64,000 nt of DNA from Amycolatopsis pretoriensis (lineage in GTDB: Bacteria > Actinomycetota > Actinomycetes > Mycobacteriales > Pseudonocardiaceae), in the NCBI RefSeq assembly GCF_900107925.1, contig NZ_FNUJ01000007.1:62001-126000 (forward strand), written 5' to 3'. The notes beneath the pieces were generated by a model that worked only from the letters and a program-made list of their open reading frames with translations, was not told the DNA's origin and searched no databases. The position numbers and the translations under genes are program-made. How positions within the stretch are numbered: position 1 is the stretch's first letter; each line of letters begins with the position of its first letter. This document shows, piece by piece, positions 52,028-58,372 of the stretch.

Positions 52028-52732
52028 TCAGCTTTCCGGCGCAGGCGGGGGTTCTTCCGCCCGGGCCACGGCGGTCCCCCATTCGGGGGTGAGCGCCACC
52101 TGCTTGCCGACGCGGCGCACCGGCAGGCCGTTCACCTGCCGCTTGCCGAGCCCCGGCCAGATCTCCGCGGCGTCCTTCGCCGCGGCCCGGATCGCGCCGC
52201 CGTCGAGGGTCGTGCGCGTCTCGGGGATTTCGCGGTCGGTCCACTGGACGACCAGCTTCAGCGGGCCGGCCGGCGGGAGCGGCCACAGGAACACTTCGTG
52301 CTCGACGGCGAAGCGCGTGCCGCCGACGGGGTGCGCCCGCAGCACCGGTTCCTCCGGTTCGGACGCCGACGGCACCGAGACGGCCTCGGAGCTCGCCCGG
52401 CTGCCGTCGGCGTAGAGCACGCCGACGAGCAGCCCGTTGTAGTCGGGTTTGCGCCGGTGGTCGATCAGGCCCTCGGCGGGGTCGTCGACCAGGCTGTCGC
52501 GCGAGTACACGGTGATGCGCAGGGTGAGCGCCTGCGGCCACACCTCGACCGCCCGGAGCGCCACGATCGTGCGCTCGGAGCGGCCCAGCGGCTGCGCCAG
52601 GGGCAGCACGGCCGGGACGATGTGTTCACGTGGGGGATCGGTCCAGTGCCGGCCGTTGAACGCGTACAGCTCCTGTTCCGGGACGGGGAACAGGGGACGC
52701 TCGCGGGGACCGCCGGTGAAGAAGCCGCTCAT
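52028..52732 (-). CDS. Conserved hypothetical protein
   Basis: The 234-residue soluble protein begins MSGFFTGGPRERPLFPVPEQ. It is beta-rich, with a tripartite pattern (HIVPAVLPLAQPLGRSERTI, FLWPLPPAGPLKLVVQWTDR) resembling a small sandwich domain. No catalytic motif, signal peptide or membrane segment is seen. ATG 52732 was chosen because the codons upstream are not coding-like and contain the hairpin repeats. I do not recognise the family. Confidence 0.65.
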   Translation of the reverse strand: MSGFFTGGPRERPLFPVPEQELYAFNGRHWTDPPREHIVPAVLPLAQPLGRSERTIVALRAVEVWPQALTLRITVYSRDSLVDDPAEGLIDHRRKPDYNGLLVGVLYADGSRASSEAVSVPSASEPEEPVLRAHPVGGTRFAVEHEVFLWPLPPAGPLKLVVQWTDREIPETRTTLDGGAIRAAAKDAAEIWPGLGKRQVNGLPVRRVGKQVALTPEWGTAVARAEEPPPAPES

Positions 52733-53007
52733 CGGTCGGCCCGCGACACGCTGTCCGGCACCATGCGCCCACGGTAGGACACCGGCCCGGGAATTGCCGC
52801 CCCCGAACGGGCGTACGGCCCTTGCCTCCCGTGATCCGGGACACAAGGGCCGTACGCAGCGTGATCCGCCGGTCGCGCACCGAGCGAGGCTCGCCCCCGC
52901 TCGCCCGGGTCGCCGACCGGTGCTGAAGGGCACCTTCCTCGCATGAGATGGGAGAAAGGTGCCCTTCAGCGCATCACATGAGACGAAGGTGCCCTTCAGC
53001 CCGCACG
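52733..53007. repeat. Intergenic hairpin-repeat cluster
   Basis: No gene is seen. One hairpin has perfect 14-bp arms (52811-52824 and 52844-52857) with a nested 4-bp stem. A second element, AAGGTGCCCTTCAG, occurs inverted at 52923-52936 and directly at 52956-52969 and 52986-52999, so either pair of opposite copies can form a 14-bp hairpin. The last copy is eight bases past the flotillin stop and may act as its terminator. Confidence 0.7.
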
Positions 53008-54513
53008 TCAGTCGGTCAGCTTGAGCTCGCCGTTCGACTGGGCCTGCTTCTCCAGTTCCTTCTCCGCCGGCTTGCCCATCGCGTCCATCAGCTGCCGGGC
53101 CAGGCCGAGGCCCGTCCCGCCGAGCGACAACGCCTTCGCGAACATGTCCGACATCCCGTCCGCGCCGTTGAGCACGACCATGTGGTCGACGTTGCCGAAC
53201 GCACTCGCGCCCGCCTCGACGATCTCCGGCCAGCGCTCGGCCAGCTGCTGCGCCACGACGGCTTCCTGGTTCTCCGCCAGCGCCGCCGCGCGGGCCTTGA
53301 TCGCGTCCGCCTCGGCGAGACCCTTCGCGCGGGCCGATTCGGCTTCCGCCAGGCCGCGCGCCTTCGCGGCCTCCGCCTCGGCCAGGCCGCGCGCCTTGGC
53401 CGCGGCCGCCTCCGCTTCACCGGTCGCCCGGGTCGCGCCGGCCGCCGCCTCCGCGCGGGCCTTCGTGGCCTGCGCCTCGGCCTCGGCCGCCGTCTTCACG
53501 CGCGTCGCGTCCGCCGCCGCCCGCAGCTCCGTCTCCTTCGCCTCGGCCTGCGCCTTCGCGATCGAAGCGTCACGAGCCGCGTCGGCCGTCGTACGCGTGT
53601 CGTACGCCTTCGCGTCGGCCGGCTTGCGGACCTGCGACTGCAGCCGCTGCTCGGCCAGCGCCGCTTCCAGCTCCGCCGCCCGCGTCTCCTGGACGACGAC
53701 CTCCTGGCGCGCGGTCGCCTCGGCCAGCGGCCCCGACTGCGACGCCTTCGCCCGCGCCTGGTCCACCTCGGCCTGGTAGCCGGCCTGCTGGATCTGGCTC
53801 TCGCGGACCGCGGCTGCCTTCTTCGCCGCGGAGACCTGCTCGACCTCGGCGGCCTCCTGGTCGCTGCGCGCCTCGGCGATGCGGGCCGACGCGGCGATCG
53901 CGGCGGCGTGCGGCTTGCCGAGGTTGGTGATGTAGCCCGACTCGTCGTCGATCTCCTGGATCTGCAGCGAGTCGACGATCAGCCCCAGCTTGATCATCTC
54001 CGTCGCCGAGGACTGCCGGACCTCGCCGGTCAGCGCGTCCCGGTTGTGGATCATCTCCTCGATGGTCAGCCCGCCCACGATCGAGCGCAGGTGCCCGGAG
54101 AACAGCTCGTGGATCGTGTCGTTCATGCCCTTCTGCTGGTCCAGGAACCGGCGGGCGGCGTTGGCGATCGAGGCGAAGTCGTCCCCGACCTTGTAGATGA
54201 CGACCGCTCGCACGGTGACCGGCAGCCCCTGCTTGGTGACGCACGAGACCTGCAGGTTGACACCGCGCGTGTCCAGCGACAGCCGGCGCGCGGTCTGGAA
54301 GCCGGGCAGGACGTTCACGCCGCGACCGGTGATGATCTTGAACCCCAGGCTGTCCGCGGTGTCCGCGCGGTCGACCCGGACGCCCAGCCCGGAGATGATC
54401 AGGGCTTCGTTCGGCTCGGCGACCTTGTACAGCAGCCGCAGGATCCCGAAGATCACCACCAGCGCGACGACGAGCCCACCTACCGAATACAGCAGGATTT
54501 CCACGAGACTCAT
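53008..54513 (-). CDS. Flotillin-family SPFH protein
   Basis: The 501-residue protein has an N-terminal membrane segment (about 5-28), an SPFH domain (about 30-210; RRLSLDTRGVNLQVSCVTKQ, AARRFLDQQKGMNDTIHELF then SGHLRSIVGGL), a long Ala/Glu/Lys coiled coil (about 215-420) with an internal repeat (E/DA-x-AKARGLAEAE), and a C-terminal oligomerisation region (GADGMSDMFAKALSLGGTG). Flotillins form membrane scaffolds. It follows the NfeD-like OB gene by 55 bp in a kinase operon, which suggests phosphorylation-controlled scaffold assembly. Confidence 0.92.
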   Translation of the reverse strand: MSLVEILLYSVGGLVVALVVIFGILRLLYKVAEPNEALIISGLGVRVDRADTADSLGFKIITGRGVNVLPGFQTARRLSLDTRGVNLQVSCVTKQGLPVTVRAVVIYKVGDDFASIANAARRFLDQQKGMNDTIHELFSGHLRSIVGGLTIEEMIHNRDALTGEVRQSSATEMIKLGLIVDSLQIQEIDDESGYITNLGKPHAAAIAASARIAEARSDQEAAEVEQVSAAKKAAAVRESQIQQAGYQAEVDQARAKASQSGPLAEATARQEVVVQETRAAELEAALAEQRLQSQVRKPADAKAYDTRTTADAARDASIAKAQAEAKETELRAAADATRVKTAAEAEAQATKARAEAAAGATRATGEAEAAAAKARGLAEAEAAKARGLAEAESARAKGLAEADAIKARAAALAENQEAVVAQQLAERWPEIVEAGASAFGNVDHMVVLNGADGMSDMFAKALSLGGTGLGLARQLMDAMGKPAEKELEKQAQSNGELKLTD

Positions 54514-54568
54514 GGCACCGACCCCCTCGCTCTTCTGTTGTGGGTGTGTTGGTGCCCCTTCGACGCCG

Positions 54569-54778
54569 TCAGCGGCTCAACGGTTGCCACCGCTCGACAT
54601 AAACCGTCCGCGGGGGTTCGAAGTCCACGACGAGCACCTGCGTGCCGGAGCTGAACGACTCGTCCGGGTCGGCCGGGTAGGCGTAGAACGCCTCCGTGCC
54701 GCCCCGAACGTTCAGCAGGACCTCGCCGATGAGGCCGGGGCCGATCGTGCCCGTGACGCGGCCTCGGCTGCCGATCAT
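54569..54778 (-). CDS. NfeD-like OB-fold small protein
   Basis: The 69-residue protein (MIGSRGRVTGTIGPGLIGEV ... GTQVLVVDFEPPRTVYVERW) matches the C-terminal OB domain of NfeD proteins, which are partners of flotillins in other bacteria. It lacks the protease and membrane parts, so it is a stand-alone domain. ATG 54778 overlaps the kinase stop as ATGA. It probably binds the flotillin encoded next. Confidence 0.78.
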   Translation of the reverse strand: MIGSRGRVTGTIGPGLIGEVLLNVRGGTEAFYAYPADPDESFSSGTQVLVVDFEPPRTVYVERWQPLSR

Positions 54779-56805
54779 CCCCCGAAGCCCTTCAGCTTGA
54801 CCTTGGAGCCCTTCTGCACGAACGTCCCCGGCTGCGGGTCCTGCTGGAAGACGAAGTCGAACCCGCCGCCGCCGTTGCCGCGGCCCCGGCCGCCGTCGCG
54901 GTCGGCCTTCAGCCCGGCCTGCTCGAGGATCTTCTGCGCGTCGTCGAACGAGCGGAACCGGACGTCGGGCACCTGGACGGCGTTGTTGACGAAGACGCCG
55001 ATCCGCTTTTCCTTCGCCTGCGAGTTGGCCGGCGGGTCGGTCCGGGTGACGGCGCCGCCCGGGACCTCCTGCTTGAACTCCTCGCCGGCCTGGAACGGCT
55101 CGAACCCGGCCTGTTGCAGCAGCTGGAACGCCTCGTCCTTGCTGCGCCCGACGACGTCCGGGACCGGCGGCAGCGGGATCGGGCCCTTCGACACGATGAT
55201 CGTGACCTGGCCGCCGATGTTCAGCTGGCTGCCCGCCGACGGCTCGGTGCGGATCACCGCGCCCTGCGGGACGTCGGCGTCGTAGTCGTCGGTGCCGCGC
55301 GCCGGGGTCAGCTGCGCGGTCTTGATCGCCTGCTCGGCGTCGGGCAGCGCGGTGCCCGGCCGGATGTCCGGCACGGTCGGGCGGCCCTTCGACAGCACGA
55401 CCGACACCGTCGAGTTCGGCGCCAGCGACGTGCCCTCGGCGGGCTCGGCGCGCAGCACGGTGTTCGACGGGACCGAGTTGTCGTACTCCTGGCTGAACTG
55501 CGGGGTCAGCTTCACCGCGCGCAGCGCGTCGCCCGCCGCGGCCTGGTTGAGCCCGACGAGCTTCGGCACGGTCGCGGTCTTGTCGCCACCGGTGTCGGTG
55601 AGCATGAAGATGAACGCCGTGATCAGGCCGCCGAACAGCAGCACCGCGCCGGCGATGACGGCGATCTGCTTCCGGTTGTCGGCCGGCTTCTCCGGCTCCG
55701 GCTCGCTCCGGCGCCGCGCTGCGGGCGGCGGCACGGGCGGGATCTGCTGGGTGAAGCCCGGGGGCGGGGTGCCGGGGTGGCTCAGCGCCCGCGTCGCGTT
55801 CGGACGGTGCACCGGCATCGTCTTTTCGCTGTCCGGCGCCACCTGCGGGATCCGGGGGAGCGTGCGCTCGGTGTCGGCGAGGTCGCCCTGGCCGTGCGAC
55901 ACCGGAACCGGGACGGTCACCGGCAGCAGGCCCAGCTGCGCGCGCACCGCCGTCAGCTCGGTCAGGAACTCCCCGGCGTCGGCGGGGCGCAGCTCGGGGT
56001 CGCGCCGGGTCGCGCGGGTGATCAGCTCGTCGAGCTCCGGCGGCAGGTCCGGGCGCAGCGCGCTCGGCCGCGGGACGTCGTCGTTCACGTGCCGGTAGGC
56101 CACCGAGATCGCGGTGTCGCCGGTGTAGGGCACCTGCCCGGTGAGCATTTCGTAGAGCAGGATGCCCGCGGAGTAGACGTCGCCGCGTGCGGACGCCGCG
56201 CCGGTCTCGACCTGCTCCGGCGACAGGTAGGCGACCGTCCCGAGGATGACGCTCGAGCTGGTCGTGCCCGCGCTCGCGACGGCCCGGACCAGCCCGAAGT
56301 CGGCGACCTTGACCGCGCCGCCGGTGTGCGGCCCGGTCCGGCCGATCAGCACGTTCTCCGGCTTGACGTCCCGGTGCACCAGGCCCGACCGGTGCGCGGC
56401 GGCCAGCGCCGACAGCACCGGTTCGGCCACGCTCAGCGCCAGTGCGACGTCCAGCGGGCCCTTCTCGTCCAGCAGGTCGCGCAGGGTGCCGCCGTCCACC
56501 AGTTCCATCACCAGGAAGGCGAGGCCCGACTCGGCGCCCTGGGGCAGGTCGAACCCCTGGTCGTGCACCGCCACCACGTGCGGGTGGTGCAGCTGGGCCG
56601 CCGACTGCGCTTCCCGGACGAAGCGGTCCACGAACGACCGGTCGTCGGCGAACCGCGGGTCCATGATCTTGATCGCGACCGGACGGTCCAGCCGGGTGTC
56701 CGTCCCCCGGTAGACGGAAGACATCCCCCCGTGCGCGAGCAGCCGGTCCACCCGGTAGCGCCGCTCGAGGAGCGTGCCGACCAGGCCGGGTTGGGTGCGA
56801 GTCAC
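54775..56805 (-). CDS. PknL-like Ser/Thr protein kinase with PASTA domains
   Basis: The kinase domain (about 12-290 of 676) has the glycine loop GGMSSVY, lysine K46 (VAIKIM), HRDVKPEN (H144-N151), DFG (169-171), and an activation segment with TTSSSVILGT. A proline-rich linker, one membrane segment (about 381-402) and four extracellular PASTA repeats follow (each with a P-D-V/VP-x-L start). PASTA domains sense muropeptides. It is PknL-like in being divergent from an Rv2175c-type gene. GTG 56805 has TACGAT eight bases upstream (56814-56819); ATG 56832 is the alternative. Confidence 0.92.
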   Translation of the reverse strand: MTRTQPGLVGTLLERRYRVDRLLAHGGMSSVYRGTDTRLDRPVAIKIMDPRFADDRSFVDRFVREAQSAAQLHHPHVVAVHDQGFDLPQGAESGLAFLVMELVDGGTLRDLLDEKGPLDVALALSVAEPVLSALAAAHRSGLVHRDVKPENVLIGRTGPHTGGAVKVADFGLVRAVASAGTTSSSVILGTVAYLSPEQVETGAASARGDVYSAGILLYEMLTGQVPYTGDTAISVAYRHVNDDVPRPSALRPDLPPELDELITRATRRDPELRPADAGEFLTELTAVRAQLGLLPVTVPVPVSHGQGDLADTERTLPRIPQVAPDSEKTMPVHRPNATRALSHPGTPPPGFTQQIPPVPPPAARRRSEPEPEKPADNRKQIAVIAGAVLLFGGLITAFIFMLTDTGGDKTATVPKLVGLNQAAAGDALRAVKLTPQFSQEYDNSVPSNTVLRAEPAEGTSLAPNSTVSVVLSKGRPTVPDIRPGTALPDAEQAIKTAQLTPARGTDDYDADVPQGAVIRTEPSAGSQLNIGGQVTIIVSKGPIPLPPVPDVVGRSKDEAFQLLQQAGFEPFQAGEEFKQEVPGGAVTRTDPPANSQAKEKRIGVFVNNAVQVPDVRFRSFDDAQKILEQAGLKADRDGGRGRGNGGGGFDFVFQQDPQPGTFVQKGSKVKLKGFGG

Positions 56806-56902
56806 GAGTATGGATCGTACGGAACCGGCCACGGTTCGTGGAGGAGACCTCGCGGGTCACCCGTGCGCACTAGCGGGAGTGGGTGCGGAATGTGGCAGAG
56901 TG

Positions 56903-58372
56903 TCACGTGTGAGTGGGATTCCTGTCGCCGACGACGTCCTCGACACCGCCATCGCGGTTCTTCCGCTGGCGGAGGTGGCGAACGTCCTCGGGACCTCCGC
57001 CAACAAGGTCCGCCAGATGCTGCGCGACGGGCAGCTGATCGCCCTCAAGCGCGGCGGTGACCTGTGCGTTCCCAGCGACTTCTTCGTCAAGGACGGCGTC
57101 GTCAAGGGCCTGGCCGGCACGATCACGGTGCTCGCCGACTCCGGGTTTTCGCGGACCGAGATGCTGCGCTGGCTCTTCGAGACCGACGAGAGCCTGCCGG
57201 GCAGGACCCCGGTCAACGCCCTGCGCACCAGCCACGGCACCGAGGTCAAGCGGCGCGCGCAGGCGATGGCGTTCTGACCTGCTCGAACAGGCCGCGGCGC
57301 CGAGCTGGACGACCGCGGCGGCGAGCAGGCACGCCGGCAGCGACCACGCCGCGAGCGGGCCGGCCAAGGCCGCTCCCGCCGCGAGGCCGGTGATCTTCAC
57401 GCTCGCCGCCGTCGTGAACACCTGAGCCCGCACGTGCTCCGGCGCTTCCCGGTGGCGGATCGCGAACAAGGCTGTGAGCTGCGGTCCTTCGGCGATTCCG
57501 GCGATCGCGGCGGCCGCCACCAGCGAGACGGGGTCCCGGCCGACGGCCGCCAGTGCGGCGCTCGCGGCCAGGACGAGCGTGCTCAGCAGGACGATCCGGT
57601 CCGGTGACCACGGCAGCGGTTTTCGCGTGAAGACCGCGTTGGCCAGCAGGGACGTGACCGCGAGGACGGTCAGCAGGAGGGCGCCGTCCGCTGGGCCTCG
57701 GAGGTGAGCCGCCCCGAGCAAGGGGTAACAGACGGTGACCATGCCGATGCCCGCACAGGAGATCGTCGACGCCGTCGTCGCGCGCCTCAGGGATGCGTTG
57801 CGGACGAGGATCGTGAAGCCGTCTCGGAGGTTCGTTTTCGCCTGGGGTCGCTTCCTCGGGAGACGCCACGCGATCGGCGTGGCCGCCGCGACGAGGAGGA
57901 CCGCCGCGACCATGCCGGTGGGGCCGCCGAGGAGCCCCGCGAGGCCGGGACCGGCCAGGGCGGCGGCGGTGAAGGTCAGGGCGTCCTGTCGGCTGGCTTT
58001 TTCGAGCCGCGGCTGGGCGACGCCGGGCAGCTGGGCCGTCCAGCCGCCGGCGATGGCCGGGTTGAGCAGGCCGGTCACGACGGCGACGGCGACCACGCTC
58101 GCGAGCGGCAGGTGCCCGAACGCCGCGGCGACGACGGCGAGCCCACCGGCGTACCCGGCGAGGCCGGCGGCGAGCAGCCGGCCGGGCCGGGGACTGCGAT
58201 CGAGGAAGGCGCCGAAGACGGGCCCGCCCCCGGCGGCGGCCGCGGTCAGCCCGGCGAGCAGCGCCGCCCCGGCGTGCGGACCCTCCTGGAGCCCGAGCAG
58301 GAGCAGCGCGGGGCCGGACAGCTCGTCGCCGGTCCGGGCGAGCGTCGCGCCGACCAGGTAACGCCTCAGCAT
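56903..58372 (-). CDS. MFS transporter whose frame extends antisense through Rv2175c
   Basis: Residues 1-370 are a normal twelve-segment major facilitator protein (MLRRYLVGATLARTGDELSG ... LLAAAVVQLGAAACSS), of the antibiotic/drug efflux type. The frame then has no stop and reads another ~119 residues through the complementary strand of the 369-bp Rv2175c gene to a stop at 56903. That tail has no domain. The real protein may be 489 residues, or this stretch may contain an unseen earlier end or a lost stop. ATG 58372 has TAACGT (58380-58385) seven bases upstream on its strand. Confidence 0.72.
   Translation of the reverse strand: MLRRYLVGATLARTGDELSGPALLLLGLQEGPHAGAALLAGLTAAAAGGGPVFGAFLDRSPRPGRLLAAGLAGYAGGLAVVAAAFGHLPLASVVAVAVVTGLLNPAIAGGWTAQLPGVAQPRLEKASRQDALTFTAAALAGPGLAGLLGGPTGMVAAVLLVAAATPIAWRLPRKRPQAKTNLRDGFTILVRNASLRRATTASTISCAGIGMVTVCYPLLGAAHLRGPADGALLLTVLAVTSLLANAVFTRKPLPWSPDRIVLLSTLVLAASAALAAVGRDPVSLVAAAAIAGIAEGPQLTALFAIRHREAPEHVRAQVFTTAASVKITGLAAGAALAGPLAAWSLPACLLAAAVVQLGAAACSSRSERHRLRAPLDLGAVAGAQGVDRGPARQALVGLEEPAQHLGPRKPGVGEHRDRAGQALDDAVLDEEVAGNAQVTAALEGDQLPVAQHLADLVGGGPEDVRHLRQRKNRDGGVEDVVGDRNPTHT
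56909..57277 (+). CDS. Rv2175c-family DNA-binding protein (PknL substrate type)
   Basis: The 122-residue protein has a winged helix-turn-helix of the MerR/excisionase type (LPLAEVANVLGTSANKVRQM, then LRDGQLIALKRGGDLCVPSDFF) and the Rv2175c C-terminal block (GLAGTITVLADSGFSRTEML, RWLFETDESLPG). In mycobacteria Rv2175c is phosphorylated by PknL and loses DNA binding. Whether the N-terminal region carries the phosphorylated Thr was not checked. GTG 56909 is seven bases after CAGAGT (56896-56901). The whole gene is antisense to the MFS frame. Confidence 0.93.
   Translation: MSGIPVADDVLDTAIAVLPLAEVANVLGTSANKVRQMLRDGQLIALKRGGDLCVPSDFFVKDGVVKGLAGTITVLADSGFSRTEMLRWLFETDESLPGRTPVNALRTSHGTEVKRRAQAMAF

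Follow-up and report, generated by a model that had tools for sequence, protein, structure and literature searches.

A window of 64,000 nucleotides from Amycolatopsis pretoriensis (contig NZ_FNUJ01000007.1, positions 62,001 to 126,000) contains a PASTA serine/threonine kinase gene in the position of pknL, followed on the same strand by genes for a small NfeD-type OB protein and for a flotillin. The pknL-OB-flotillin order is genuine and conserved, an operon variant in which two already known units are combined. It was not found described in the literature searched, which was mostly open-access and mostly not in full text; a paper that appeared to combine PASTA and SPFH (PMC6554272) was rejected, the hit in the available part being a peptide string and not a domain. 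In the explanation favoured here, to which we give a probability of about 0.6, a soluble NfeD-type OB protein and a flotillin would be an old actinobacterial couple that was attached behind pknL, an event probably dating to the early history of Pseudonocardiaceae. The three proteins would in Amycolatopsis most likely come from one message, as the anatomy of the locus suggests, with the OB protein made by translational coupling to pknL. The OB protein would most likely bind to the ring formed by flotillin, much as FloT has NfeD2 for a companion, and the resulting scaffold would be an accessory envelope module, its dose set together with that of the PASTA kinase, dispensable and often lost. This explanation covers both the anatomy and the NfeD–flotillin partnership, and its weight overlaps with those of the rivals discussed below.

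The three genes and their products

The kinase gene (54775..56805, minus strand) starts with GTG and encodes 676 amino acids, with a kinase domain at residues 17-275, a transmembrane segment near residues 381-399 and then four PASTA repeats (54793-54978, 55006-55164, 55186-55377 and 55387-55572; span 54793..55572). Pkinase and all four PASTA matches exceed the Pfam cut-offs, the HRD and DFG motifs are present, and the protein scores 579 bits with NCBIfam PknB_PASTA_kin (cut-off 450). The bases ATGA (54775-54778) are common to the kinase stop and the start of the stand-alone OB gene (54569..54778, minus strand; 69 amino acids). A spacer of 55 bp (54514..54568), with a G-rich stretch ahead of the next ATG, separates it from the gene of an SPFH2-type flotillin of 501 amino acids (53008..54513, minus strand). 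The initial annotation had described the overlap, the 55-bp distance and a divergent Rv2175c-family gene (56909..57277, plus strand), and each of them holds. The 103 bp between the divergent genes (56806..56908) are the expected site of both promoters; consensus scans of 52700-57300 for sigma-70 promoters and terminators found nothing. Because the OB start lies on the pknL stop, a single message most likely encodes all three proteins, though the 4-nt overlap as a sign of co-transcription is suggestive only.

The flotillin has an N-terminal transmembrane segment (hydropathy peak 2.68, residues 6-24), an SPFH domain (53860-54423), an Ala/Glu-rich region and a Flot domain. Its Pfam scores are 89.9 for Band_7 (cut-off 23.6) and 37.7 for Flot (cut-off 27), and it matches flotillin-1 in the PDB with an E-value of 4e-25. 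The FloT equivalog NF058507 was not reached (216.6 bits, curated cut-off 700), and the protein is therefore not filed as FloT itself. The locus is like the SPFH2-NfeD2 operons, e.g., yuaF-floT of B. subtilis, in that a flotillin stands beside an NfeD-fold partner, and such operons are described as patchy within genera in the part of Hinderhofer 2009 (PMC2636767) used here. It is unlike them in that the partner is a bare 69-residue OB protein with no membrane segment and in that a PASTA kinase gene precedes the pair; the main text of that paper, as far as it was available, does not contain the word “kinase”. The A. pretoriensis genome contains six Band_7/SPFH matches, two of them adjacent (C21:1196825-1197902). 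A second OB and flotillin-like pair (C8:311626-312413, locus L084) is 45% (OB) and 48% (SPFH) identical to the first and is set among genes that by eye resemble infB, rbfA and a DHH phosphoesterase gene; distant OB and SPFH copies of this type occur in the same 20 of 60 genomes of the genus.

No Pfam match of the OB protein exceeds its cut-off, NfeD included; the Pfam NfeD domain was matched by 3 of 20 members, at best with an E-value of 0.027, and the best PDB profile match is YuaF of B. subtilis (E-value 0.27). The AlphaFold2 model of the protein has a mean predicted local distance difference test score of 93. Foldseek ranks YuaF first (E-value 2.2e-4), followed by 3cp0, 3wwv, 2k5h and a chain of 8z5g (QmcA-YbbJ, 0.016). 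VIA-align gives Z-scores of 11.2 for 3cp0, 10.3 for 3wwv, 9.6 for 2k5h, 9.5 for 2k14 (YuaF) and 7.8 for 2exd; values below 8 can reflect a common arrangement alone, so that four of these stand clear and 2exd adds little. The first cold-shock or RNase entry (Z 7.1) comes below these five, which are NfeD or stomatin-partner domains and MTH693. The structures 2k14, 2exd and 8z5g are titled NfeD, 3wwv is a stomatin operon partner, and 3cp0 and 2k5h are, we assume, NfeD relatives. No membrane segment was found in the 69 residues (best 19-residue hydropathy 0.87). Judged by its modelled fold, the OB protein is a stand-alone NfeD-type OB variant, not a canonical NfeD. It shares the NfeD-type OB fold with QmcA-YbbJ and the P. 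horikoshii stomatin-partner pair (8z5g, 3wwv, 2exd); unlike here, those pairs consist of stomatin-type SPFH proteins and membrane-anchored partners (compare the part of PMC2636767 used). The fold of the model and the constant pairing described below lead us to infer that the OB protein is a partner of the flotillin ring. By analogy with the co-localisation of NfeD2 and FloT, reported in the part of PMC4928834 drawn upon here, the OB protein and the flotillin most likely form a scaffold.

Linkage to pknL and its history

Rv2175c was found in 60 of 60 Amycolatopsis genomes, and a close OB gene (E ≤ 3.2e-34) in 32, the identical 32 that carry a close flotillin (≥ 85%). The OB gene lies ~2.3-2.6 kb from Rv2175c (start to start, one contig) in 31 of them; in the 32nd (G051) the contig breaks, and a pknL tail stands on what appears to be the matching named contig (L176). 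The pknL stop and the OB start share a 4-base NTGA overlap in 22 of the 22 pair-bearing loci read, and the close flotillin is single-copy in each of the 32 genomes, at the pknL locus only. The linkage of pknL with the pair in the genus exceeds chance.

A survey of pknL neighbourhoods across Pseudonocardiaceae had been proposed in the initial annotation, with linkage in this strain only as the opposite outcome. Linkage was found in the genus and in five named genera, and a strain quirk is rejected. The family sample of 249 genomes includes 41 with a match at E ≤ 1e-20 and 29 with a close flotillin (61-100%). Among these 29, the pair is linked to pknL in 22 (G114 and the linked genomes of the genus partly by distance only, G210 by the PASTA part of pknL), unlinked in five (G092, G152, G285, G243 and G185) and undecided in two with split contigs (G118 and G143). 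A second sample comprised the best 80 of 209 named relatives, with taxonomy by genus name. The OB gene is located just upstream of the flotillin in all 80 loci, and 24 are linked to pknL: 17 in Amycolatopsis, two each in Crossiella, Kutzneria and Actinoalloteichus and one in Labedaea. A further linked genus, g43, shows the pknL-OB-flotillin order. Outside the family, mostly in Streptosporangiaceae, no pknL match lies nearby in 49 of 49 named loci (tblastn, E 1e-4, > 27% identity). Matches were found in 140 of 394 genomes sampled across the class; in 20 loci picked from these, mostly higher-scoring, the OB gene always adjoins the flotillin (18 before, two after it), and pknL is in none of the 20. 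Since OB stands beside flotillin across the class without pknL, this couple is the older unit: it is older and wider than the linkage to pknL, which is seen only in Pseudonocardiaceae.

Two further features of the loci outside the family were observed. In 40 of 46 of them (L187-L244, mostly Streptosporangiaceae; three of the 49, on short contigs, were dropped), a divergent gene for a large sensor-type protein, by eye resembling a conservon histidine kinase, lies ~4.7 kb upstream of the flotillin. The flotillin gene is followed in tandem by another flotillin-like gene, or by pieces of such a gene, in L191, L196, L201, L214, L220, L230, L237 and L241, which belong to several Nonomuraea, a Planotetraspora and one more genome of Streptosporangiaceae.

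The history of the pair was approached with two trees. In the flotillin tree (49 proteins), the linked copies need three changes, at least two of them forced; it is compatible with one gain followed by losses, with details left unsure by long branches. The tree of pknL, with 49 rows of which 22 have the pair and 27 lack it, needs five state changes, at least four of them forced by starred branches. Downstream of the pknL stop, before the next gene begins, G057, G009, G035 and G029 retain scars of the flotillin 3′ end; G021 preserves the overlap of the OB start with the pknL stop and part of the OB C-terminal half (E ≤ 3e-10 in all five). In fifteen related pair-less genomes one and the same flotillin stretch is matched more weakly (5e-7 to 0.012); nine of these beat the best of 274 control pieces (7.6e-5), and six rest on the common place only. 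No scar match better than chance was found in seven of the 27 pair-less loci (G001, G041, G054, G013, G011, G056 and G049). The scars in five pair-less genomes indicate that OB and flotillin were most likely ancestral in the genus and were deleted repeatedly, together, with pknL kept; several gains inside Amycolatopsis are disfavoured on the same ground.

Several observations weigh against a functional tie between pknL and the pair. The surroundings of pknL are conserved as a block in their own right (aroF-pknL-Rv2175c-idsA), the pair has been lost repeatedly, and seven of the 31 named Pseudonocardiaceae loci are unlinked (three Lentzea, three Pseudonocardia and one Allokutzneria). The OB start overlaps the pknL stop in the Amycolatopsis loci read and in Crossiella L119 and L120, with short gaps in other Crossiella. 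In Kutzneria, the OB ATG is preceded at a distance of 6 nt by a TAGACT (4/5) or TATGCT box, and a TATGCT box is located upstream of OB in Actinoalloteichus, Labedaea and g43, all noted by eye and without a chance test. These boxes resemble -10 elements, so that the pair may have its own promoter outside Amycolatopsis. The linkage could therefore persist passively: the pair would have landed once behind pknL and stayed there only because the block is conserved. We hold this possibility to be less likely than not. It does not readily account for the pknL-to-OB gap, which in all loci with a matched pknL C-terminus stays between 0 and ~180 bp while other block genes vary, nor for the invariant overlap in Amycolatopsis or the restriction of the close flotillin to one copy per genome at the pknL place. 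In Amycolatopsis, production of the OB protein and the flotillin is probably coupled to that of PknL.

The kinase and the putative scaffold

PASTA kinases act on envelope targets, and the initial annotation proposed that a wall-sensing kinase directly regulates scaffold assembly. PknL would sense wall fragments via its PASTA repeats, phosphorylate the flotillin or the OB protein and so switch assembly. The gene identities, the overlap and the conserved order on which this proposal was built are upheld; direct control, however, found no support in the sequences. All 27 pair-less Amycolatopsis loci that were read retain pknL (657-743 codons; the 28th genome, G046, was left out at a contig end), which argues against direct control together with the unlinked loci and the promoter-like boxes mentioned above. 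The Ser/Thr residues of the flotillin point in the same direction. When 46 linked and 57 unlinked rows were compared, some genomes being counted twice (under a genome handle and as a named copy), eight Ser/Thr columns were favoured in linked flotillins over controls that were mostly Streptosporangiaceae; L134, L136, L176, L191 and L230, the loci of the class-wide sample (L146-L165) and Amycolatopsis loci that were short or came later were left out. None of the eight survives control with unlinked Pseudonocardiaceae, and linkage-specific phosphosites are thus rejected: S79, S169, T341 and T350 are mostly common to unlinked Lentzea, Pseudonocardia or Allokutzneria, linked Kutzneria lacks T100 and T133, and S260 and S455 are mixed. 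Under this within-family control no Ser/Thr of the OB protein or the flotillin tracks linkage. Both proteins do have conserved Ser/Thr residues, e.g., OB Thr9, which would suit a kinase substrate, although they are alike in linked and unlinked copies. Frequencies at 14 columns of pknL change with the presence of the pair, but the supported branches offer no more than four independent contrasts, too few for significance. These comparisons neither show nor exclude phosphorylation; that the kinase phosphorylates either protein seems unlikely, and a kinase-driven switch of scaffold assembly is doubtful to the same degree.

The dependence might also run in reverse, with flotillin and OB protein gathering or stabilising PknL in a membrane domain and tuning its signalling, while PknL works without them. 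The loss of the pair with pknL kept and the coupled reading frames are consistent with it, and A229, Q322, E368 and L464 of the flotillin separate linked from unlinked family members, though the linked copies are also closer kin. Evidence on flotillins is divided in the part of PMC4928834 used here: earlier work cited there reported KinC foci to depend on flotillins, whereas KinC co-localises with flotillins at only 3-4% and shared domains were rejected, in contrast to NfeD2, which does co-localise with FloT. By analogy, this rare co-localisation may be taken as a caution against presuming a kinase–flotillin complex, and the reverse dependence is likewise considered improbable. A more general proposal is that kinase, flotillin ring and soluble NfeD-type partner would form one complex, an optional add-on to PknL kept or dropped with lifestyle; it could run either way, with PknL acting on the scaffold by phosphorylation or being gathered by it. 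We put it forward tentatively, as less likely than not.

There is disagreement over the role of bacterial flotillins and over whether signalling kinases are organised by them. Here a natural operon joins a PASTA kinase with a flotillin pair in some Amycolatopsis, whereas near relatives have deleted it; nature thus provides matched contrasts, and the question becomes accessible to genetics in antibiotic producers. For PknL, about whose output little is known, the operon supplies a concrete candidate partner.

Flanking genes and repeats

The divergent gene encodes a winged helix-turn-helix protein of 122 amino acids in which both Rv2175c domains exceed their cut-offs (PF21531, 87.6 bits; PF18367, 96.8 bits). 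PknL was recognised here as a Ser/Thr kinase with a transmembrane segment adjoining such a gene. The kinase is a pknL-position gene, whose likeness to M. tuberculosis PknL would follow from gene context. Class-II DAHP synthase and polyprenyl synthetase genes lie close to it in the window, an order which we take to be that around pknL in M. tuberculosis. The locus is thus like the mycobacterial and corynebacterial pknL-Rv2175c locus in its kinase, its divergent gene and these two neighbours; it is unlike it in the PASTA repeats of the kinase, which to our knowledge M. tuberculosis PknL does not have, and in the OB and flotillin genes that follow. The kinase is also like the PknB/Stk1 PASTA kinases in exceeding the PknB_PASTA_kin cut-off and unlike them in adjoining Rv2175c. 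It is not the sole PASTA kinase candidate of the genome: a second multi-PASTA frame on another contig (C13:67251-68093) appears the likelier PknB. As annotated, the 122-residue form of the Rv2175c-like protein is without the N-terminal Thr9 extension, with the frame open upstream to 56774 and the start unproven. The label “PknL-substrate-type” given to this gene earlier is loose, the phosphorylated Thr9 extension of Rv2175c being reported as unique to M. tuberculosis in the part of PMC4601284 used.

Downstream of the flotillin, a gene for a 234-residue protein without a Pfam match (52028-52732, minus strand) may be part of the same operon. In most Amycolatopsis loci read it adjoins pknL or the flotillin, with the pair present or absent. 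Just 3′ of the flotillin (52923..52999) stand three copies of the hairpin repeat AAGGTGCCCTTCAG, which fold as a strong hairpin (z -4.9). The repeat has 62 copies in the genome (0 for the reversed-pattern control), often clustered at 30- or 33-base spacing; a search of 17 named Amycolatopsis loci for its first 13 letters gave no match. Two relatives have a wider OB-flotillin gap, of 200 bp (L015 1700-1925) and 503 bp (L018 1700-2230). A AAGGTGCCCTTCAG-type repeat as the filler was rejected, as it was not found there; the widened gaps hold other hairpin or GGGGCATCAC-type repeats, as though repeats insert at this place.

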